Of a DNA stretch of 64,000 nt, positions 1 through 60,482 are shown in pieces (within the stretch, counting starts at the first letter, position 1; each line of letters begins with the position of its first letter). A program made the translations under genes and the position numbers. This stretch comes from Rhodoferax sp. (GTDB lineage: Bacteria > Pseudomonadota > Gammaproteobacteria > Burkholderiales > Burkholderiaceae_C), in assembly GCF_028715765.1 (NCBI RefSeq), contig NZ_JAQURE010000011.1, forward strand, positions 1 through 64,000. Reading direction: 5' to 3'. A model generated the notes under the pieces. It was not told where the DNA came from and did no database searches. It worked only from the letters and a program-made list of their open reading frames with translations.

Positions 1-3000
1 GTCGAGATGCAGTTTTTAAGCGACGTGTACCTGCGTTGCCCGGACTGCGATGGCAAACGCTACCGCCCGGAAATCCTGGAAATCACGATTGAGCGCAGTG
101 GAGCAGAAATGGGGTCAGATCCCAATTCGGGTTACAGCCTCTCGCAAAAACCTGAACGCCGTCCCGAATTGGGCTCTGACCCCAGTTTTGCGGAGCCAGT
201 TAAAGCTAATGCTGATGTGGAGGTGGCTTTAACCCGCAGCGCACGCGGGATTTCTGAACAGTTGAGGACAGAGCTAAAGGTCTGTCCCGCAAGTCTCAAT
301 GACGCGGATGTCCCCCGGTCCGGGCTGCGCCCGAGCCTCCCCCTTGATTCCGCTACGTCAGACACCCCACGCACGCCGCTAGACGGTGCTGGTCAGTCAA
401 CGCATAACTGGGCTGCAGATAAGCGCGGCGATAGCCAAAGAGCTGAAATGGGGTCAGATCCCAATTCGGGCTACATCGGCAAGCAAAACCACAACCGCAT
501 CACCGATTTGGCAAAACCCCAAGTCCAGGGCTCTGACCCCGTTTCTGCGGTGCCAGTTAAAACCACTGTCGTCAGGCACCTCAACGTCGCCGACGTTTTA
601 GACCTGACCGTCAGCCAGGCCGCCGACCTGTTCCGCCACGACCGCGATGTCATCCGCGCGCTGCAACCGATCATCGACGTGGGTCTGGATTACGTCAAAC
701 TCGGCCAGCCCGTGCCCACGCTCAGCGGTGGTGAGGCGCAGCGCCTGAAACTCGCCGGTTTTCTTGCTGAAGCGGCCAAAACCAGCAGCGCCAGCCGCCA
801 AGCTTTGGCGCGCAAGGGCACGTTGTTCATGTTTGACGAGCCCACCACCGGCCTGCACTTTGACGACATTGCCAAACTCATGCGCGCTTTGCGCAAACTG
901 CAAGATGCCGGCCACAGCCTGCTGGTGATCGAGCACAACCTGGACGTGATACGCGCTGCCGACTGGCTCATCGACCTCGGCCCCGAGGGCGGCGATGCCG
1001 GTGGTGAGGTGGTGGCCTACGGCACGCCCGAAGACGTGATGCTGCACGCCACCAGCCACACCGCGCTGGCGCTGCGCGACTACGCCGCCCAAATGGGCGT
1101 GGTGCATGAGGTGCGCGAATTCGCCATGTCGCCAGCAGCCAGCCCTCACCCTAACCCTCCCCCAGCGGGGGAGGCAACGCCGGCTTTGGCGGTTGCTCCT
1201 TCCCGCCTTTGGGGGAAGGTTGGGATGGGGGCTTCGGCCACCCTAGCGGATCAAAAGCCATTCAATCATGCAACAGCGCAGCCAGCCACAAAGCTACTCT
1301 CAAATAGAGAGCTGTCTGCGCATATTCCATATGCGCTAGAGGCCAAAAACACCATACAAATCATCAACGCCCGCGAACACAACCTGAAAGGCCTGAGCGT
1401 CAACATTCCGCGCGGCCAGTTCACTGTGGTCACGGGGGTCAGCGGCTCGGGCAAGTCCACGCTGGCGTTTGACATTTTGTTCAACGAAGGGCAGCGGCGT
1501 TATCTGGAAAGCCTGAACGCCTATGCCCGCAGCATCGTGCAACCGGCCGGGCGGCCCGAGGTGGACGCGGTCTACGGCATTCCGCCCACGGTGGCGATTG
1601 AGCAGCGCTTGAGCCGTGGCGGGCGCAAAAGCACGGTCGGCACCACCACCGAAGTCTGGCATTTTTTGCGCCTGCTGTTTGTCAAACTCGGCACGCAGCA
1701 CTGCATCCACGACGGCACGCCAGTGGCGCCGCAAACGCCTGAGCGCATAGCCGCCACGCTGCTGCGCGATTTCAAAGGTCAGCACATTGGCCTGCTCAGC
1801 CCGTTGGTGATGAACCGAAAGGGTGTTTACACCGAGCTGGCCGAGTGGGCGCGCCCGCGCGGTTTCACCCACCTGCGCGTGGATGGCGAGTTTTTGCCCA
1901 CCACCGCGTTCCCGCGCATTGATCGGTTCAAAGAGCACACCATTGAGTTGCCGGTAATCAGCCTGGACGTGTTGCCAGACCAAGAAGCGCAACTGCGCGA
2001 TGCGTTGGCACGGGCGCTGCAACATGGCAAAGGCGTGGTGCATGTGTTGAGCCATCTGGTTGGCTTGTCTGAGGCCATGCAAGCCGGTGCGTCCACGGCG
2101 GGCATTGGCCGCTTGAGTGTGTTTTCGACCCTGCGCGCCTGCCCGGTGTGCAGCACCAGCTATGCCGAGCTCGACCCGCGCCTGTTCAGTTACAACAGCA
2201 AACACGGCTGGTGTCCGGACTGCGTCGGCACGGGCGTGGCCCTGACGCGTGAACAGCGCAAGGTGTTTGACGATTCGGCGCGAGACGACGAGCAAAAAGG
2301 CCGCGAGCAGACCTTTGCCGAAGCCGATGTGGAAGATTTGGTTGATGCCGTGTGCCCCACCTGCCATGGCACGCGCTTGAACGCGACAGCGCGCGCGGTG
2401 CGGCTCAAATTGGGGTCGGATCCCAATTCGGGCTCAATTCGTATTCAAGAGTCTAGGTTTCTCACCGAATTGGCAAAACCCCAAGTCCAGGGCTCTGACC
2501 CCAATTTCCCCACCGAGGCCAAAAATGCCCCAACGATCACCGACCTGGCGCGCCTGAGCGTGAGCGACTTGCGCGCCTGGGTGCAGCGCTTGCAGTCCGG
2601 GGCGCGATTAAGCGCGCGCGAGGCTGGCATTGCGCGCGACCTGATTCCCGAAATTCTGGGGCGGCTGCAGTTTCTGGAACAAGTCGGCCTGGGTTACCTG
2701 ACGCTGGACCGTGGCGCGCCCACCTTGAGCGGTGGCGAGGCTCAGCGCATCCGCCTGGCCGCGCAACTGGGCAGCAACCTGCAAGGCGTGTGCTACGTGC
2801 TCGACGAGCCCACCATTGGCCTGCACGCGCGTGACAACCAGATGCTGCTGGGCGCGTTGCAAACTTTGAGCGACCAGGGCAACACCCTGGTGGTGGTGGA
2901 GCACGACGAGGACACCATTCGCCATGCCTCTCACATCATCGACATTGGCCCCAGCGCTGGCAAACGCGGCGGGCAGCTGGTGGCGCAGGGTTCGGTGGCC

Positions 3001-4332
3001 GACATTGCGGCAGCGCCCGATTCGCAGACCGGCCGCTACCTGCTGCACGCCATGCGGCATCCGCTGCAGCCCCGGCGCAGGGTGTTGAATGATATGAATT
3101 CAATAGCTGCTTGCACTTTATTATCAAGGGCTAGATGCCAAAATGACGCTTTAAAACGTGAGGCGGTAGTGAATTTGGGGTCGGATCCCAATTTCGCCCA
3201 AAAGCCTTTGAAAAAAACCAAAGCGTCATCGAAATTGGGCTCTGACCCCAAGTTCACGGACCACGAAGTACAGCAGTGGCTGACCGTACACAACGCCTCC
3301 CTGCATAACCTGCAGCACGTCACCGCCCACATCCCCCTCAAGCGCTTGGTCGCCATCACTGGTGTCAGCGGCTCGGGCAAATCCACCCTGGCGCGTGACG
3401 TGTTGCTGGCCAACGTGCACACCGCCGTGCAAAAGCGCAGTACCAAAGCGGGTCGGGACGCGCTCGATGCCGGTGAGGCCATCGCCTGGGTTGGCTGTGA
3501 CAGCGTCACCGGGTTTGAAGCTGTAGACCGCGTGCTGGAAGTGGACCAAACCCCCATCGGCAAAACGCCGCGCAGTTGCCCTGCCACTTACATCGGCTTC
3601 TGGGACACCATCCGCAAGCTGTTTGCCGACACGCTGGAAGCCAAAGCGCGTGGCTACGCCGCCAACCGCTTCAGCTTCAACACCGGCGCGGGCCGCTGCC
3701 CCAGTTGCGAAGGGCAGGGCATCCGCACCATTGGTATGAGCTTCTTGCCCGACGTGAAAGTGCTGTGCGAAACCTGCAAGGGCGCACGCTTCAACCCCGA
3801 GACGCAGGCGGTGACCTGGCGCGGCAAAAACATTGGTGACATTTTGCAAATGGAAGTCGATGAAGCGGTGGACTTTTTTGCCGCCATGCCCAACATCAGC
3901 CACCCGCTGCAATTGTTGAAAGACGTGGGTCTGGGTTACCTGACGCTGGGGCAACCCTCGCCTACCCTGAGCGGTGGCGAGGCACAGCGCATCAAGCTGG
4001 TCACAGAGCTTTCCAAAGTGCGTGATGACATCACCCGCCGTGGCCAGAAAGCCCCGCACACGCTGTATGTGCTGGACGAGCCCACGGTGGGTCTGCACAT
4101 GGCGGACGTGGAAAAACTCATCAAGGTGCTGCACCGCCTGGTGGACGGCGGCCACAGCGTGGTGGTGATCGAGCACGACCTGGACGTGATCGCCGAGGCC
4201 GATTGGGTGCTGGACTTGGGGCCCGACGGTGGCAACGCCGGTGGCCGCGTGGTGGCGGCTTGCCCGCCTGAACAGGTGGTGGCGCAGGGCACGCACACCG
4301 GGGTAGCGCTGCGGGCGGTGCTGGCGCGTTGA
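1..4332 (+). CDS. uvrA: Tandem-duplicated UvrA-type excinuclease ATPase (5' truncated by window)
   Basis: UvrA proteins are ABC-type DNA damage sensors of nucleotide excision repair. The reading frame is open at base 1, so the start lies upstream. Residues are counted from the ATG at base 7. Residues 1-370 are the C-terminal ATPase half of one UvrA: zinc-hook half CPDCDGKR, signature [11 protein letters not shown] near 239, Walker [10 protein letters not shown] near 275. From about 450 a complete second UvrA follows, with Walker [10 protein letters not shown] near 477 and 1119, signatures near 908 and 1321, and zinc cysteines CPVC, CPDC, CPSC and CETC. The full protein must therefore exceed 1441 residues, about twice canonical UvrA. 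Very large tandem UvrA proteins occur in Burkholderiales. The odd feature is in-frame repeat DNA: four element A copies, two element B copies and one PHPNP element, all in loops or linkers. The ATPase motifs look intact, so I call it functional rather than a pseudogene. Confidence 0.93.
107..190. repeat. Element A copy 1 (paired palindromes, GSDPN-coding)
   Basis: The left arm GGGGTCAGATCCCAATTCGGG and right arm CGAATTGGGCTCTGACCCC are near-perfect inverted repeats about 30 bp apart. Both arms are read in the uvrA frame as GSDP peptides. It sits just after the zinc-hook half of the first UvrA module. Confidence 0.85.
446..546. repeat. Element A copy 2
   Basis: The left arm is GGGGTCAGATCCCAATTCGGG and the right end GGGCTCTGACCCC. 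The internal stretch GGCAAAACCCCAAGTCCAGG is also present in copy 3, showing the two share descent beyond the arms. It is in frame within uvrA. Confidence 0.85.
1141..1232. repeat. PHPNP-type inverted repeat inside uvrA linker
   Basis: CCCTCACCCTAACCCTCCCC at the left faces GGGGGAAGGTTGGGATGGGG at the right, an imperfect inverted repeat of about 90 bp. In frame it encodes [11 protein letters not shown], a peptide typical of a widespread GC-rich proteobacterial repeat. It lies in the linker between the two UvrA modules. Confidence 0.7.
1290..1350 (+). repeat. Element B copy in uvrA linker
   Basis: Contains AGCTGTCTGCGCATATTCC followed by ATATGCGCTAGAGGCCAAAA, matching the element B consensus. 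In the uvrA frame the end reads ALEAKN. It lies directly before the first Walker A-containing domain of module 2. Confidence 0.8.
2405..2507. repeat. Element A copy 3
   Basis: AAATTGGGGTCGGATCCCAA faces GGGCTCTGACCCCAATTT, and the internal GGCAAAACCCCAAGTCCAGG matches copy 2. It is inserted in frame after the zinc-hook half [10 protein letters not shown], the position equivalent to copy 1 in the other module. Confidence 0.85.
3100..3145 (+). repeat. Element B copy between the UvrA ATPase domains
   Basis: AATAGCTGCTTGCACTTTAT followed by ATCAAGGGCTAGATGCCAAA fits the element B consensus with one change in the AGAGGCC tail. It is in frame within the inter-domain linker of module 2. Confidence 0.75.
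3172..3256. repeat. Element A copy 4
   Basis: AATTTGGGGTCGGATCCCAA faces GAAATTGGGCTCTGACCCCA. In frame it encodes LGSDPNF and LGSDPKF. It lies about 30 bp after an element B copy in the same linker. Confidence 0.85.
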
Positions 4333-16898: not shown

Positions 16899-16927
16899 TT
16901 TGTGGTCAAGTGGTATCAGTGCATTCT

Positions 16928-18382
16928 ATGAAACACAACACCACATTATCTTTTCGCCACGCTGCCTGCCTGGTGCTGGGTCTGGGCTTGGGTTGCGCCG
17001 CAGGGGCAACACCCGCAACCACGGCGCCGGTTGCGCCATTGCCGGTGGCTCCAACCCAGGTGCGGACAACGGCGGAACAATTTACCTTGGCCAATGGCAT
17101 GACGTTGATCGTCAAGCCTGACCGGCGCGCCCCCACCGCGGTGCACATGCTGTGGCTGCGGGTGGGCGCCATGGACGAAGTTGACGGCACCTCGGGCGTG
17201 GCGCATGTGCTGGAGCACATGATGTTCAAAGGCACACCCAGCGTGCCTGCGGGCGAGTTTTCGCGCCGGGTGGCCGCTCTAGGTGGTCGCGAAAACGCCT
17301 TCACCAGCCGCGACTACACCGGCTATTACCAGCAAATACCCGCTGCCAAGCTGGAGCAAGTGATGCAGTTGGAGGCCGACCGCTTTGCCCATAACCAGTG
17401 GCCAGACGATGAATTCAAAAAAGAGCTGGAAGTGGTCAAGGAAGAGCGCCGCATGCGCACCGAAGACAACCCGCTGGCGCTGATGGGTGAAGCACTCAAC
17501 GCCACCGCTTTTGTGGCCTCGCCCTACCGCCGCCCCATTGTGGGCTGGATGAGCGATCTGCAAGCCTTGAAGCCGCAAGATGTGCGCGACTTCTACCAGC
17601 GCTGGTACGTGCCCGCCAATGCCGCTGTGGTGGTGGCCGGTGACGTGGAGGTGAGCCAGGTCAAGGCCTGGGCGGAGAAATACTACGGCGGCTTGCCCGC
17701 CCGCGCTGTGCCTGAGCGCAAGCCGCGCGAGGAGCCGGCGCAAGTTGGCCTGAAACGCCTGGCATTCAAAGCCCCCGCCGAGCAAGCCAATGCCACCCTG
17801 GCCTACAAAGTGCCAGGCTTGCAACTGCGCCCAGGGGTGCCCACCGATGCCGACGCCCTGGCCTTGACGGTGCTGGCCGCGGTGCTGGATGGCTACAGCG
17901 GCTCGCGCCTGGAGCGCGCCCTGACGCAGGGCACCGACCGGGTGGCCGACAGTGCAGGCGCTTACAACGGTCTGTGGGGACGTGGTCCGCAGTTGTTCAT
18001 GCTGATGGGGGTGCCCGCACCGGGCAAGACCGCCACCCAGGTGGAGGAGGCTTTGAAAGCGCAAGTGGCACGCATTGCCCGCGAGGGCGTGACCGCGGCG
18101 GAGTTGGCGCGGGTCAAAACCCAATGGGTGTCGTCAGAGGTCTACAAGCTCGATTCGGTCTTTAACCAAGCGCGTGAGCTGGGCACCCAGTGGGCGCAGG
18201 GCTTGGATGTGAATGCCGGTGAGCAGCTGATTGCGCAACTGCGTGGCGTGACCGCCGAGCAAGTGCAGGCGGTGGCGCAACGCTATTTTGGCGACGACGC
18301 CTTGACCGTGGCGCATTTGCTGCCCCAGCCCGTAGACAAAACCCGTAAACCGCGTCTGCCACTGGCAGGTGCGCGCCACTGA
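16928..18382 (+). CDS. M16-family zinc peptidase, catalytic subunit (exported)
   Basis: The 484-residue protein begins with a signal peptide (hydrophobic LVLGLGLGCAAGA). It carries the inverted zinc motif HVLEH (H93, E96, H97) followed by the downstream glutamate in VVKEERRMRTEDNP, as in pitrilysin/processing-peptidase family M16B. I chose ATG 16928 because the six codons before it in the ORF track precede the signal peptide. The next gene encodes a second M16 chain lacking the zinc motif, so the pair is likely a periplasmic heterodimer. Substrates are unknown; peptide turnover is the family role. Confidence 0.9.
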   Translation: MKHNTTLSFRHAACLVLGLGLGCAAGATPATTAPVAPLPVAPTQVRTTAEQFTLANGMTLIVKPDRRAPTAVHMLWLRVGAMDEVDGTSGVAHVLEHMMFKGTPSVPAGEFSRRVAALGGRENAFTSRDYTGYYQQIPAAKLEQVMQLEADRFAHNQWPDDEFKKELEVVKEERRMRTEDNPLALMGEALNATAFVASPYRRPIVGWMSDLQALKPQDVRDFYQRWYVPANAAVVVAGDVEVSQVKAWAEKYYGGLPARAVPERKPREEPAQVGLKRLAFKAPAEQANATLAYKVPGLQLRPGVPTDADALALTVLAAVLDGYSGSRLERALTQGTDRVADSAGAYNGLWGRGPQLFMLMGVPAPGKTATQVEEALKAQVARIAREGVTAAELARVKTQWVSSEVYKLDSVFNQARELGTQWAQGLDVNAGEQLIAQLRGVTAEQVQAVAQRYFGDDALTVAHLLPQPVDKTRKPRLPLAGARH

Positions 18383-18425
18383 CCCTTGTTTGATCCGACT
18401 GCATCCCGTTCTTTGAGGCTTTCTG

Positions 18426-19844
18426 ATGACTCTTAAAAAAATAGCTGCTCACGCTTTCATATCAAGCGCCACAGCCTTATTTCTTATAAATTCTGCATGG
18501 GCTGCCATTCCCATTGAGCACTGGACGCAGCCCCAGGGTGCCCAGGTTTTTCTGGTGCAAAACCACGCCATTCCGATGGTGGATGTGCAGCTGGACTTTG
18601 ACGCCGGCAGCCGCCGCGACCCCGCGTCTCAGGCCGGCTTAGCCACGGTCACGTCGGCCATGATGTCCAAAGGGCTGCAAGCTGGCACGGCCAGCGCCGA
18701 GCCTGCCATGGATGAAAACGCCTTGGGCGAAGCGTGGGCAGACCTGGGTGCCCATTTTGGCGGCCATGCCAGCACCGACCGCATGAGCTTTGCCCTGCGC
18801 TCCTTGGCTTACCCTGAGTTGCTGGCGCAGGCCGCGGCACTGGCTTCACGGCAGCTGGCGCAACCGGCCTTTCCGGCAGCGGTCTGGCAGCGTGAACGCG
18901 AGGCCATGCAAGCCTCCATCCGCGAGGCCAACACCCGCCCCGCCACGGTGGCCGGCCGAGCCTTCAACCAAGCCGTTTATGGGACACACCCTTATGGGTT
19001 TGAAGTCACGCCTGAGACCCTGGCCGCCATTGACGTGCGCGCCATGGCGGATTTGCATCAACGCAGCGTGCTGGCGTGCCGCGCCACCGTGACGGTGGTG
19101 GGGGCGGTGACCCGTGACCAGGCTGACGCACTGGTCAGCACGCTGCTGTCGCGCCTGGCACCTGCGCCCAAGCCCGCTTCAACCGGAGCCCACAGTTGTC
19201 CGGCGCTGCCCGCTGTGGCAGACATTGCGGCGCTGACGCAAGCCATTGAGTCGCGCTTGGCGTTTGATTCGGCCCAGGCGCATGTGCTGATGGGGCAACC
19301 TGGCTTCAAACGCAACGACCCCGATTTTTTGGCCTTGACGGTGGGCAACTACATTCTGGGTGGCGGTGGTTTTGTCTCGCGCCTGACCGAAGAAGTGCGT
19401 GAAAAACGGGGCTTGAGCTACAGCGTGTACAGCTACTTTGCCCCGGCCATGCACGCGGGCGCCTTCACCATTGGTTTGCAAACCCGGCCCGACCAGGCCG
19501 AGCAGGCCTTGCAAGTGGCGCGTGAGGTGCTGGCGCGTTTTGTCAGCGAAGGCCCCACTGAGGCCGAACTCCAGGCCGCCAAAGCCAATTTGATCGGTGG
19601 TTTTGCCTTGCGACTGGACAGCAACCGCAAGCTGCTTGACAACGTGGCCAACATCGCCTGGAACAAGTTGCCGTTGAATTATTTGGACACTTGGACACAG
19701 CATGTTGAGCAACTGACCACAGAGCAAATTCGTGCCGCTTTTGCGCGCAAATTGCAGCCGCAACGCATGGCCACCGTGGTGCTGGGTGCTGCTGCGGCTA
19801 CACCTGCACCTGCAATATCTGTATCAACTGCAGTAACGCAGTGA
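18426..19844 (+). CDS. M16-family peptidase, non-catalytic partner (exported)
   Basis: The 472-residue protein has the M16 fold but no HxxEH; the corresponding region reads LATVTSAMMSKG. It keeps the C-terminal substrate-binding segment REKRGLSYSVYSYF that completes the active site in M16B heterodimers. The signal peptide (KKIAAHAFISSATALFLINSAWA) is encoded by a copy of element B, an unusual origin for an export signal. It starts 43 bp after the catalytic partner and is probably cotranscribed. Confidence 0.9.
   Translation: MTLKKIAAHAFISSATALFLINSAWAAIPIEHWTQPQGAQVFLVQNHAIPMVDVQLDFDAGSRRDPASQAGLATVTSAMMSKGLQAGTASAEPAMDENALGEAWADLGAHFGGHASTDRMSFALRSLAYPELLAQAAALASRQLAQPAFPAAVWQREREAMQASIREANTRPATVAGRAFNQAVYGTHPYGFEVTPETLAAIDVRAMADLHQRSVLACRATVTVVGAVTRDQADALVSTLLSRLAPAPKPASTGAHSCPALPAVADIAALTQAIESRLAFDSAQAHVLMGQPGFKRNDPDFLALTVGNYILGGGGFVSRLTEEVREKRGLSYSVYSYFAPAMHAGAFTIGLQTRPDQAEQALQVAREVLARFVSEGPTEAELQAAKANLIGGFALRLDSNRKLLDNVANIAWNKLPLNYLDTWTQHVEQLTTEQIRAAFARKLQPQRMATVVLGAAAATPAPAISVSTAVTQ
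18436..18480 (+). repeat. Element B copy encoding a signal peptide
   Basis: AATAGCTGCTCACGCTTTCA then TATCAAGCGCCACAGCCTTA aligns with the element B consensus over its whole length. It lies within the first 18 codons of the second M16 gene and supplies IAAHAFISSATAL of the export signal. Confidence 0.7.
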
Positions 19845-43961: not shown

Positions 43962-44690
43962 ATGACTGAATTTTCTAGAACCCAAGGCCGCTTGGCCAAT
44001 GCGCTGCGCCCAGTGCGCCTGACCCGCGCTTACACCCTGCACGCCGAAGGCTCGGTGTTGATCGAGTTTGGCCACACCAAAGTGCTGTGCAATGCCTCGG
44101 TGCTCGACAAAGTGCCGCCGCACCAAAAAGGCCGCGGCCTTGGCTGGGTCACCGCCGAATACGGCATGCTGCCACGCGCCACCCACAGCCGCAGCGACCG
44201 CGAAGCCGCGCGCGGCAAGCAAACCGGACGCACACAAGAAATTCAGCGTTTGATCGGCCGTGCCCTGCGCTCGGTGTTTGACCTCAGCCTGCTCGGCGAG
44301 CGCACCTTGCACCTTGATTGCGACGTGCTGCAAGCCGATGGCGGCACCCGCACGGCGGCCATCACCGGCGCCTTTGTCGCTGCGCAAGATGCTGTCAATG
44401 GCTTGCTGGCGGCGGGTAAATTGACGCAGTCGCCGATTCGTGAAGCGGTGGCGGCCATCTCGGTTGGCATGGTGCAAGGCACGCCGTTGCTCGACCTGGA
44501 ATATGTTGAAGATGCCGCTTGCGACACCGACATGAACGTGGTCATGACCGCCAGCGGGCATTTTGTCGAGCTGCAAGGCACAGCCGAAGGTGCGCCCTTT
44601 AGCCGCACCGAAATGGATCAACTCTTGAACTTGGCCGACCAAGGCATTCGTGAGCTGATTCTGTTGCAGCAAGAATCGCTCTCTAAATAA
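43962..44690 (+). CDS. rph: Ribonuclease PH
   Basis: RNase PH is the phosphorolytic 3'-5' exoribonuclease that trims tRNA 3' ends. The 242-residue protein has [22 protein letters not shown], the arginine-rich [39 protein letters not shown] and the phosphate-binding [15 protein letters not shown] chose ATG 43962, the start of [10 protein letters not shown]. It precedes rdgB, a conserved pair, with element B between. Confidence 0.95.
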
Positions 44691-44733
44691 GAGCTACTCA
44701 CGCACTAACCATAAGCGCTAGAGGTCTATTTGT
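44685..44733 (+). repeat. Element B copy between rph and rdgB
   Basis: AAGAGCTACTCACGCACTAA then CCATAAGCGCTAGAGGTCTA. It overlaps the rph stop codon and ends next to the rdgB start. Confidence 0.8.
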
Positions 44734-44734
44734 T

Positions 44735-45337
44735 ATGAAAATTGTATTGGCATCCAACAACCCCGGGAAATTGGTTGAGTTGCAAGCCATGTTGGCGCCG
44801 CTGCAGCTGGAGCTGGTGACCCAAGGCAGCCTGGGCATTCCTGAAGCGGCCGAGCCGTTTCACACCTTCATTGAAAACGCTTTGGCCAAAGCGCGTCACG
44901 CGGCGCATTTGAGCGGCCTGCCGGCCATGGCCGATGACGCCGGTTTGTGCGTGGATGCCTTTGGCGGCTTGCCGGGGGTGGACACCGCTTATTACGCCAC
45001 CCAGTTTGGCTACGCCAAAAGCGACGCCAACAACGTGCGTGCCCTGTTGGAGCAAATGCAAGGCATTGACAACCGGCGCGCCGCCATGGTCAGCACACTG
45101 GTGGCGCTGCGCTCAGCCGACGACCCCGAGCCACTGGTGGCGGTGGGGCGGGTGGTGGGCGACATCACCCAGGCGCCGATGGGTAGCAACGGCTTTGGCT
45201 TTGACCCGGTGATGTGGTTGCCCGAATTCGGCCAAACCTTTGCCCAGTTGCCCACCGAAGTTAAAAATGCCCACAGCCACCGCGGCCGCGCCGTGGCCGC
45301 CATGGTGGCGCTGATGCGTGAGCGCTGGCAGATTTGA
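44735..45337 (+). CDS. rdgB: XTP/dITP pyrophosphatase (RdgB/HAM1)
   Basis: RdgB hydrolyses non-canonical purine triphosphates (ITP, XTP) to keep them out of DNA. The 200-residue protein starts KIVLASNNPGKLVELQAML and has FIENALAKARHAAHLSGLPAMADDAGLCVDAFGGLPGV, GYGFDP-like GFGFDPVMWLP and the C-terminal NAHSHRGRAVAAM. It follows rph. Its leader is almost entirely element B, leaving little native ribosome binding sequence. Confidence 0.95.
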   Translation: MKIVLASNNPGKLVELQAMLAPLQLELVTQGSLGIPEAAEPFHTFIENALAKARHAAHLSGLPAMADDAGLCVDAFGGLPGVDTAYYATQFGYAKSDANNVRALLEQMQGIDNRRAAMVSTLVALRSADDPEPLVAVGRVVGDITQAPMGSNGFGFDPVMWLPEFGQTFAQLPTEVKNAHSHRGRAVAAMVALMRERWQI

Positions 45338-48616: not shown

Positions 48617-48653
48617 CAGCCGCCGCTGGCGCTTACACCGCCAGCGGCGGCTG
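48617..48653. terminator. Perfect 15-bp inverted repeat at the hsp20/srkA convergence
   Basis: CAGCCGCCGCTGGCG and CGCCAGCGGCGGCTG flank CTTACAC. One arm encodes the last residues of SrkA and the loop contains its stop codon. It lacks a U-tract but could end transcripts from both sides. Confidence 0.55.
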
Positions 48654-49709
48654 TTGCATGGCTTCCAACTGGTCTTGCAGCATGACCACCTGGCCTTGCC
48701 AATAGTCGCTGCTGCCGAACCAGGGAAAGTTGATGGCAAAAATGGGGTCTTCCCAGCGCCGCGCCAGCCACGCGCTGTAGTGCAGCAAGCGCAGTGTGCG
48801 CAGCGGCTCCAGCAACGCCAGTTCGCGTGCATCAAAGGGGCGAAACTGCTCGTAGCCGTCCACCAGCGCGGCCAGTTGCCGGGTTTGTTGCGCCCGGTCG
48901 CCGCTCAGCAGCATCCACAGATCTTGCACCGCCGGGCCACTGCGGCAGTCGTCCAGGTCGACAAAATGCGGGCCGGGCAGCTGGCTGGCAGGCACCTCCA
49001 GCGGTGTCCACAAAATGTTGCCGGGGTGGCAGTCGCCGTGCAGGCGCAGCGTCTGCATGGCGCTGGCACCTGGGTTGGCCTCGTTCGTTAAATTATTTAA
49101 GTCTTTTTGGCCTCTAGCGCCCGTCAATAGGGCATGAGTAGCTATCAAATCAATGGCGTCTTGGGCAGCCTTGGCCCAGGCGCTTTGCACATCCAGCGGC
49201 ACTTTGTCATGACCCAGCAGCCAGTCGCGCGCGGCCACGCCAAAGCTGGCCACATCCAGCGCCGGGCGGTGGACAAAGGGGTGTGCCGTGCCCACGCTGT
49301 GGATGCGTGCCAAAAAACGGCCAATCCACTCCAACACCTCACCGTCTTCCAGTTCGGGCTGGCGGCCACCGCGCCATGGGCTCACGCTGAAGTCAAAGCC
49401 ACCATGGTGGTGCAGCGTCTGGCCGTTCAGCATCAGCGGTGCCACCACCGGAATTTCTGCCGCAGCCAGCTCGGCTGAAAATGCATGCTCTTCTTCAATT
49501 TGCGCCCGGGTCCAGCGCTGCGGGCGGTAAAACTTGGCCACCACCTTGCGGCCATCGTCCAAGTGGGCTTGGTAAACCCGGTTTTCGTAAGAGCTCAAGG
49601 CCATTTGCCGGCCGTCGCCCAGCAGCCCCACGCTGGCCAGCGCGTCTTGCACCACATCGGGCGTGAGTGCCTGAAACGGGTGGCTTGCGGTGGGCGAGGT
49701 GCTAGGCAT
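48633..49709 (-). CDS. srkA: Stress response kinase A (SrkA/RdoA)
   Basis: SrkA is a choline-kinase-fold Ser/Thr kinase that protects against envelope and MazEF-linked stress in E. coli. The 358-residue protein has SSYENRVYQAHLDDGRKVVAKFYRP, LHGDCHPGNILWT (catalytic Asp) and HFVDLDDCRSGPAVQDLWML. The segment IATHALLTGARGQKDLNNL before the catalytic loop is encoded by an in-frame element B copy and replaces a variable loop. It overlaps the upstream GspE-like gene by 8 bp. Confidence 0.92.
   Translation of the reverse strand: MPSTSPTASHPFQALTPDVVQDALASVGLLGDGRQMALSSYENRVYQAHLDDGRKVVAKFYRPQRWTRAQIEEEHAFSAELAAAEIPVVAPLMLNGQTLHHHGGFDFSVSPWRGGRQPELEDGEVLEWIGRFLARIHSVGTAHPFVHRPALDVASFGVAARDWLLGHDKVPLDVQSAWAKAAQDAIDLIATHALLTGARGQKDLNNLTNEANPGASAMQTLRLHGDCHPGNILWTPLEVPASQLPGPHFVDLDDCRSGPAVQDLWMLLSGDRAQQTRQLAALVDGYEQFRPFDARELALLEPLRTLRLLHYSAWLARRWEDPIFAINFPWFGSSDYWQGQVVMLQDQLEAMQQPPLAV
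49097..49149 (-). repeat. Element B copy inside srkA
   Basis: On the minus strand GATAGCTACTCATGCCCTAT then TGACGGGCGCTAGAGGCCAA. It is read in frame, giving a peptide that shares ARGQKD with the ABC permease N-terminus. Confidence 0.8.
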
Positions 49710-58928: not shown

Positions 58929-60482
58929 TTACTGAAACGCCACCTCGGCAAAACTGCGCAGTTTGCGGCTGTGCAACTGCGCCACGCCTTGGGCGCGCAG
59001 CAGCTCCAGCGCCCGGATGCCAATGCGCAGGTGCTGGTCGACCCGCTCGCGGTAAAAGTGGTTGGCCATGCCGGGAAGCTTGATCTCGCCGTGCAGCGGT
59101 TTGTCGCTCACGCACAGCAAGGTGCCGTAGGGCACACGAAACCTGAAACCATTGGCAGCGATGGTGGCGCTTTCCATGTCCAGCGCCACGGCGCGGCTTT
59201 GGCTAAAGCGGCGTTGCGGGCCGTTGTCGGGCAGCAGTTCCCAGTTGCGGTTGTCGGTGCTGGCTACGGTGCCGGTGCGCATGATGCTTTTGAGCTCAGA
59301 CCCTTTGAGCTGGGTGACCTGTGACACCGCGCTGGCCAGTGCCACCTGGATTTCAGCCAGGGCCGGCAGCGGCACCCACAGCGGCAGTTCTTCATCAAGC
59401 ACATGGTCTTCGCGCACATAGCCGTGCGCCAGCACAAAGTCGCCCAGTTGCTGCGTGCTGCGCAGGCCGGCACAGTGGCCAAGCATGATCCAGGCGTGTG
59501 GGCGCAGCACGGCAATGTGGTCGGTGATGGTTTTGGCATTGGCCGGGCCAACACCGATGTTGACCATGCTGATGCCACTGCCATCGGCGCGCACCAGGTG
59601 ATAGGCGGGCATTTGCGGCAGGCGCGGTGGTGGGGTGCCGGTTCGGCTGGGGAAATTGGGGTCAGAGCCCAATTCCGCTGGCGCAAAATTGGAATCTGAC
59701 CCCAATTTTTCTGACCCCAATTTGGAGTTTGCCCGGCTTGTCACCACATTGCCAGGCTCCACAAACGCTACATATTCGCTAGCTGCTTGCGCCATTTGGG
59801 CGTGGCCTAGGGCAATGAATTCATCAATGTAAAACTGGTAGTTGGTGAACAGCACAAAGTTTTGAAAGTGCTCGGGCGCGGTGCCGGTGTAGTGGCGCAG
59901 GCGCTGCAGCGAATAGTCCACCCGCGGCGCGGTGAACAGGCTCAAGGGTTGTGGCTCGCCAGGGCGTGGCACGTGGGTGCCGTTGGCAATGCCGTCGTCC
60001 ATGGCGGCCAGATCCGGCAGGTCAAACACATCGCGCATGAGCTGGCGCCGCTCGGGGCTCAAGCTGCCTTCCACATGGTCGTTTTCAGCAAACGAAAAAT
60101 GCACCGGAATCGGTTGGTTGCTGGTGCCCACTTCAAGCTCAACACCATGGTTTTCCAGCAGCAGGGTGAACTGCTCAAGAAGGTAGTGGGCAAACAAATC
60201 TGGCCGCGTCAAGGTGGTCTCAAAACGCCCCGCACTGGCCACAAAACCATAGCTCAAACACGCTGCATCCGCATGAGTGTGGCGGTTGACCGTGTCGGTT
60301 TGCACCCGCACAAAGGGGTAGCAGGCGCGCACATGGCCGGGTAGCTCAGTGCCTGCCACAAAGCGCTGCATGGCCAGGCGCAGGTGGTTGATGCTGTTGG
60401 CGTAAATCAGCTGCACTTGTGCCAAGGCGGCCGCTGGGTCTGAAAAGCGCGTGGGCGCAATGAAAGGGGGTAAATGAGGCAT
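58929..60482 (-). CDS. amn: AMP nucleosidase
   Basis: Amn splits AMP into adenine and ribose 5-phosphate to adjust adenylate levels. The 517-residue protein matches the bacterial Amn architecture, with the conserved QMPAYHLV, SMVNIGVGPANAKTITDHIAVLRPHAWIMLGHCAGLR, DMESATIAANGFRFRVPYGTLLCVSDKPLHGEIKLPG and HSRKLRSF. At residues about 252-279 an element A copy (KLGSEKLGSDSNF, LGSDPNF) replaces the variable hinge between the N-terminal domain and the phosphorylase-like domain. Flanking conserved blocks are intact, so activity is likely preserved. Confidence 0.93.
   Translation of the reverse strand: MPHLPPFIAPTRFSDPAAALAQVQLIYANSINHLRLAMQRFVAGTELPGHVRACYPFVRVQTDTVNRHTHADAACLSYGFVASAGRFETTLTRPDLFAHYLLEQFTLLLENHGVELEVGTSNQPIPVHFSFAENDHVEGSLSPERRQLMRDVFDLPDLAAMDDGIANGTHVPRPGEPQPLSLFTAPRVDYSLQRLRHYTGTAPEHFQNFVLFTNYQFYIDEFIALGHAQMAQAASEYVAFVEPGNVVTSRANSKLGSEKLGSDSNFAPAELGSDPNFPSRTGTPPPRLPQMPAYHLVRADGSGISMVNIGVGPANAKTITDHIAVLRPHAWIMLGHCAGLRSTQQLGDFVLAHGYVREDHVLDEELPLWVPLPALAEIQVALASAVSQVTQLKGSELKSIMRTGTVASTDNRNWELLPDNGPQRRFSQSRAVALDMESATIAANGFRFRVPYGTLLCVSDKPLHGEIKLPGMANHFYRERVDQHLRIGIRALELLRAQGVAQLHSRKLRSFAEVAFQ
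59648..59728. repeat. Element A copy 5, inside amn
   Basis: GGAAATTGGGGTCAGAGCCC faces TTGGAATCTGACCCCAATTT, with an additional CTGACCCCAATTTGG half-copy. It is read in frame on the minus strand as LGSDSNF and LGSDPNF. Confidence 0.85.

Follow-up and report, generated by a model that had tools for sequence, protein, structure and literature searches.

The window analyzed here, 64,000 nucleotides of a Rhodoferax sp. contig, contains a pair of M16 peptidase genes on the forward strand: an upstream gene at 16910..18382 (Pfam PF00675, 2.7e-25; PF05193, 2.9e-31) and its partner at 18426..19844, which encodes 472 amino acids (PF05193, 5.8e-31; PF00675, 1.5e-7). Orthologs of the partner are 64-80% identical in relatives, and its named relatives come from Rhodoferax, Polaromonas, and other Comamonadaceae. 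The protein starts with MTLKKIAAHAFISSATALFLIN-SAWA, and codons 1-26 (18426..18503, +) encode a presumed Sec signal peptide, MTLKKIAAHAFISSATALFLINSAWA, with two Lys, a hydrophobic core, and AWA, after which the mature protein would begin with AIPIEHW (the cleavage is inferred). By inspection, not with a predictor, the layout of a type I Sec signal is met, with MTLKK, IAAHAFISSATALFLIN, and AWA in this order, and the orthologs follow the same plan.

A dispersed repeat accounts for most of this presumed signal peptide. The core codons, IAAHAFISSATAL (18441..18479, +), are in frame with the ATG at 18426 and, in the genome-wide scan, show one mismatch to the core pattern of the repeat. An earlier note on this DNA took these codons for a full-length match to the element; the match is real, with a score of 35 against the 67-bp consensus and a maximum of 15 among 1000 shuffles, but its true extent is longer. 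The near full-length copy spans 18430..18492 (+), that is, codons 2-23 in its only fully open frame, with 49 identities in 63 positions, and includes the right end of the element, LFLIN. At E<1e-3, the N-terminal DNA of the M16 gene matches 30 or more other sites of the genome, with 83-85% identity over 52-60 bp for the best of them. The probable signal peptidase I motif, A-W-A (codons 24-26; 18495..18503, +), lies beyond the end of the match at 18492 and so outside the element, and the element's own A-T-A (codons 15-17) sits within the hydrophobic stretch. Judging from the sequence alone, the element probably supplies the n-region and the h-region of the presumed signal, and the cleavage motif comes from non-element DNA; both cleavage and export are inferred.

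The consensus of the repeat, built from 100 genomic copies, is AATTGCTATTAAATTAATAGCTGCTTACGCTTATTTCATAAGCGCTAGAGGCCTATTTCTTATAAATT, an AT-rich sequence of ~67 bp that forms two hairpins (stem-loops). Only one of its six frames is open from end to end; it reads IAIKLIAAYAYFISARGLFLIN, a peptide with one Lys, a hydrophobic core, and small residues at ISA. As far as can be told from this translation, the consensus of the repeat, even untranslated, would already be close to a signal peptide. Allowing up to 3 mismatches, the core pattern matches the 3.4-Mb genome at 341 places (174 on the forward strand and 167 on the reverse), compared with 0 for the reversed pattern that served as a control in the same genome; a slightly wider pattern yields 390. 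Within the bacterial family, the repeat is present in 52 of 151 genomes, with a maximum of 470 copies per genome. An Rfam search of window positions 17800-19000 returned no match. Y1 transposases were considered as the mobilizer and rejected because they occur in genomes of the genus both with and without the repeat, showing no association with its presence. In one relative (G025), the stem of most copies reads ACCCTT..AAGGGCT rather than GCGCTT..AAGCGCT; the two subfamilies thus differ by a compensatory change that keeps the stem paired. Six copies (G000:C53:13462, C13:6711, C31:18462, C24:28552, C3:104598, and C17:44701) have longer flanks in common (TATCTGTGTGG...GAGTCC...GTGAGGCAGGGTGATTG) and look like parts of a larger repeat that carries the element.

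The M16 partner is not the only protein that begins with the element. We searched the genome with a profile built mostly from non-signal copies and then took the stretches with long open frames; the resulting counts of coding copies are not an exhaustive census. Seven proteins of exported families in this genome begin with the element, all in one frame: the M16 partner, LolA (MKRIALLFIATYACISSATG...), SCO1/SenC (MNKRNALKKIATCALFISATGVFYG followed by C, lipobox-like), GspD, DsbD, SIMPL, and a polysaccharide deacetylase, the last on a contig with an early end. All seven copies score well above shuffles. Relatives contribute four more families (phospholipase A1, TctC, SLT_2 transglycosylase, and cupredoxin), DsbD in another genus, and two short proteins that match no Pfam family; in Rhodoferax G214, the element is also found on the orthologs of M16, SCO1, GspD, DsbD, SIMPL, and the deacetylase. 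The Ala-x-Ala-like ending that the earlier note ascribed to the element-encoded peptide, and that probably does not serve for cleavage in the M16 protein, is met here: in the polysaccharide deacetylase, TctC, phospholipase A1, and SLT_2 transglycosylase, the presumed cleavage site coincides with the element's own SA[T/R]A, before Q. The signal model is not merely finding signal peptides, because it gives only 0-1 matches in each of the eleven genomes of the genus that lack the core pattern. The element matches of a hypothetical protein in G104 and of SCO1 in G036 score weakly, and chance stays open for both.

Copies also occur in other arrangements. One, at window positions 49092-49148 (-), is read in the usual frame, as LIATHALLTGARGQKDL, within the ORF 48633..49709 (-); another, at 44687-44743 (+), ends right at the ATG of the ORF 44735..45337. 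N-terminal coding status was dropped for the copies at C27:34057 (L047), C13:31967, and C11:44687, where the gene start is at or after the end of the element. At L090 (G000:C40:12614-12769), two in-frame copies, 33 nt apart, lie within a single open frame of 402 amino acids, which, by eye, we take to be MiaA-like. Reverse-strand coding copies exist as well, with opposite-strand copies at L067, L075, and L053 of the same genome lying within long ORFs in another frame (..PLALMNKAQAAIN..). At L173 (1450-2490; G000:C27:4203), a D-Ala-D-Ala-ligase-like gene may start at an ATG inside the element (MGQFLINSEKVAVLLGG).

Altogether, ~20 coding copies are in frame and share one frame, including ~11 that are internal to long open frames, which, together with the hairpins, meets one criterion for a protein-coding palindromic repeat like those of Rickettsia, namely, a dispersed palindrome in frame within unrelated genes. 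Several of the genes with internal copies presumably encode UvrC, MiaA, ThiL, and PepN (recognized by eye, without a Pfam run). Two of the N-terminal copies belong to cytosolic proteins, a CysN-like GTPase and a DUF934 protein. Thus, the element is also simply tolerated, and the most durable rival explanation, which we consider a real possibility albeit not the favored one, extends such tolerance to all copies: the repeat inserts anywhere, N-termini put up with it, and the Sec system accepts many hydrophobic stretches, so that the peptides work, the single open frame being the only peculiarity, as in the Rickettsia palindromic elements. Indeed, the internal and the cytosolic N-terminal copies are in the same frame as the signal copies, and the other five frames of the consensus contain stops. 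What such tolerance does not readily accommodate is that exported proteins account for 7 of the 9 N-terminal copies (p 3e-4 at a base rate of 20% exported proteins, an assumption of the analysis), that the untranslated consensus already reads as signal-like, and that hydrophobicity goes up in the signal copies and down in the other coding copies. The mean Kyte-Doolittle value of the first ten codons is 1.71 in signal copies vs 0.73 in other coding copies (p 9e-5) and 1.14 in untranslated ones (p 0.018 for the comparison with signal copies).

The signal copies contain no acidic residues, and Thr in place of Arg at codon 11 is typical of coding copies as a whole (13:5 vs 15:62, p 3.5e-5). Stem pairing is lower in the signal copies (3.9 vs 5.0 of 7 pairs, p 0.007). 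Because the groups are small and were set up after inspection, the p-values for the copy classes are descriptive only. These data bear on the alternative that the element at a gene start is an RNA hairpin that governs translation or mRNA stability, with the peptide as a by-product. The two hairpins of the consensus and the retention of 6-7 of the 7 stem pairs in the LolA and deacetylase copies are compatible with such a role, but the average signal copy has fewer stem pairs and yet retains the frame and the hydrophobicity, which disfavors a function in the 5' leader and makes this explanation improbable.

We scored the N-termini of M16 orthologs against the element and counted the repeat copies in the same 51 genomes; four Polaromonas-type entries were scored against the Polaromonas variant. 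The score of the M16 signal correlates with copy number (rho 0.80), and an element-like signal is present in 22 of the 30 genomes that have 20 or more copies vs 1 of the 21 with fewer than 20; neither figure is corrected for phylogeny. The earlier note held that its derivation of the signal from the repeat would be refuted by orthologs sharing the same codons in lineages without the element. The one low-copy genome with an element-like M16 signal (L210) does not provide such a case: it belongs to the Polaromonas-type group and matches a variant, ATAGCTGCTTAGGCAATAAATACGCCGGCTACAGCC, whose copies the pattern counts incompletely. The Polaromonas-type M16 signals (L185, L190, and L210) score 22-27 against the local variant and 6-10 against the Rhodoferax type, with shuffles reaching 12 at most. 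This match to the local variant argues for independent recruitment of the repeat by the same gene, or conversion by local copies, and against the repeat having arisen from the signal. Element-free orthologs have unrelated signal-like N-termini with the same end point, before AIP/GIPIEHW. The M16 tree requires ~10 changes of the element label, which does not support a single clean insertion; with so many changes, ancestral insertion followed by erosion, repeated gain, and loss are not separable.

Descent of the repeat from a signal-peptide gene, that is, an ancestral signal sequence that was copied and spread, would explain why the entire element is open in a signal-like frame, and a faint remnant of the left arm may survive in the M16 signal of Paracidovorax anthurii (L194), a genome with 0 copies. 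Nevertheless, we regard this origin as very unlikely: apart from the fit of the M16 signals to the variants of their own lineages, the coding copies are degraded forms of the palindromic consensus, and the element was not found in the M16 genes of Variovorax and Ramlibacter. A chance likeness between Ala-rich signal peptides and the element, to which the compositional bias of signal peptides might contribute, is hardly tenable given the rare ATA, GCT, and TTA codons in register, the lack of such N-termini where the element is absent, and the DNA-level scores far above shuffles; it is refuted for M16, LolA, SCO1, GspD, SIMPL, and the deacetylase.

We therefore consider it highly likely that a Comamonadaceae repeat was recruited for the signal peptides of exported proteins and subsequently tuned. 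Homology at the DNA level, the common frame, recurrence in exported proteins, the association with repeat abundance, and the lineage-matched variants are observed; Sec export by the peptide, the route of arrival (by insertion or through recombination with a different copy), and the chronology of these steps are inferred. The proposed scenario would start from the ~67-bp repeat with two stem-loops and one open frame for a Lys-bearing hydrophobic peptide that is rich in Ala, Ile, Phe, and Ser, ends in small residues, and might approximate a Sec signal peptide without further change. Copies at the starts of genes for exported proteins would have displaced an earlier signal peptide, and point changes would then have tuned them, with Arg replaced by Thr at codon 11, acidic residues absent, hydrophobicity increased, and pairing in the hairpin eroded. 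One such case would be the M16 partner at 18426, comprising the ATG, the element, and SAWA, with cleavage before the next Ala. The proposal of the earlier note, a repeat able to serve directly as an export signal, is thus supported by six more exported proteins with the element in the same frame in this genome, and by those in relatives, with the caveat that export itself is inferred. A stronger version, in which the repeat is a mobile signal-peptide cassette whose frame is kept signal-competent and which repeatedly overwrites conserved signals, the M16 signal being refreshed from the lineage's own subfamily by insertion or gene conversion, is a tentative suggestion that we doubt more than we credit.

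The nearest precedents are RU-2 in Yersinia YPO1552 and the Rickettsia palindromic elements. The enterobacterial RU-1f and RU-2/YPAL (Delihas 2007, PMC2759123; PMC2229807) also are small palindromic mobile-like repeats with a hydrophobic open frame; unlike the repeat described here, they are 127-168 bp long, reside in unrelated hosts, and contribute to one or a few putative proteins, and no lineage-matched replacement is described in these papers. The Rickettsia palindromic elements (Ogata et al., as cited in PMC10969869 and PMC2229807) likewise are in-frame in many conserved genes, with a preferred frame and tolerated insertion. They are 105-150 bp long and belong to Rickettsia, in contrast to the ~67-bp repeat enriched at the N-termini of exported proteins, and the portions available mention no role in signal peptides. 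BRE (PMC3110155) similarly is dispersed in Comamonadaceae and Bordetella, at times within ORFs; identity with it was rejected on length and GC content (~90 bp, ~69% GC, and at most 29 copies, compared with ~67 bp, AT-rich, and hundreds of copies), although the sequences were not aligned. REP elements (PMC3733652) share the small size, the palindromic structure, and the high copy number, but GTAG/CGTC REP identity was rejected since neither tetranucleotide is at the ends of the consensus; none of six Comamonadaceae terms occurs in that paper. In its behavior, the element resembles coding repeats of the MITE or RPE type, and we claim no membership in a named family. We found no report of a repeat that recurrently serves as the signal peptide of conserved exported proteins, but subscription papers mostly were not covered, so that novelty is provisional.

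Where bacteria obtain new signal peptides can seldom be observed; in this case, the source is a repeat that can be counted. A single repeat with a selfish look seems to have supplied export signals ready for use again and again, with export inferred, and it can overwrite the first codons even of conserved genes, such as lolA, dsbD, gspD, and sco1. Hundreds of copies that are not translated serve as internal controls, so that one can follow how export signals arise, are tuned, and are replaced, base by base across dozens of genomes.

The window also contains a second short repeat (AATTGGGGTCAGATCCCAATT and relatives), at positions 107-133, 446-472, 2408-2434, 3173-3260, and 59654-59714. It occurs several times within the 1441-aa ORF 7..4332, and again at ~59.7 kb, and apparently is coding.
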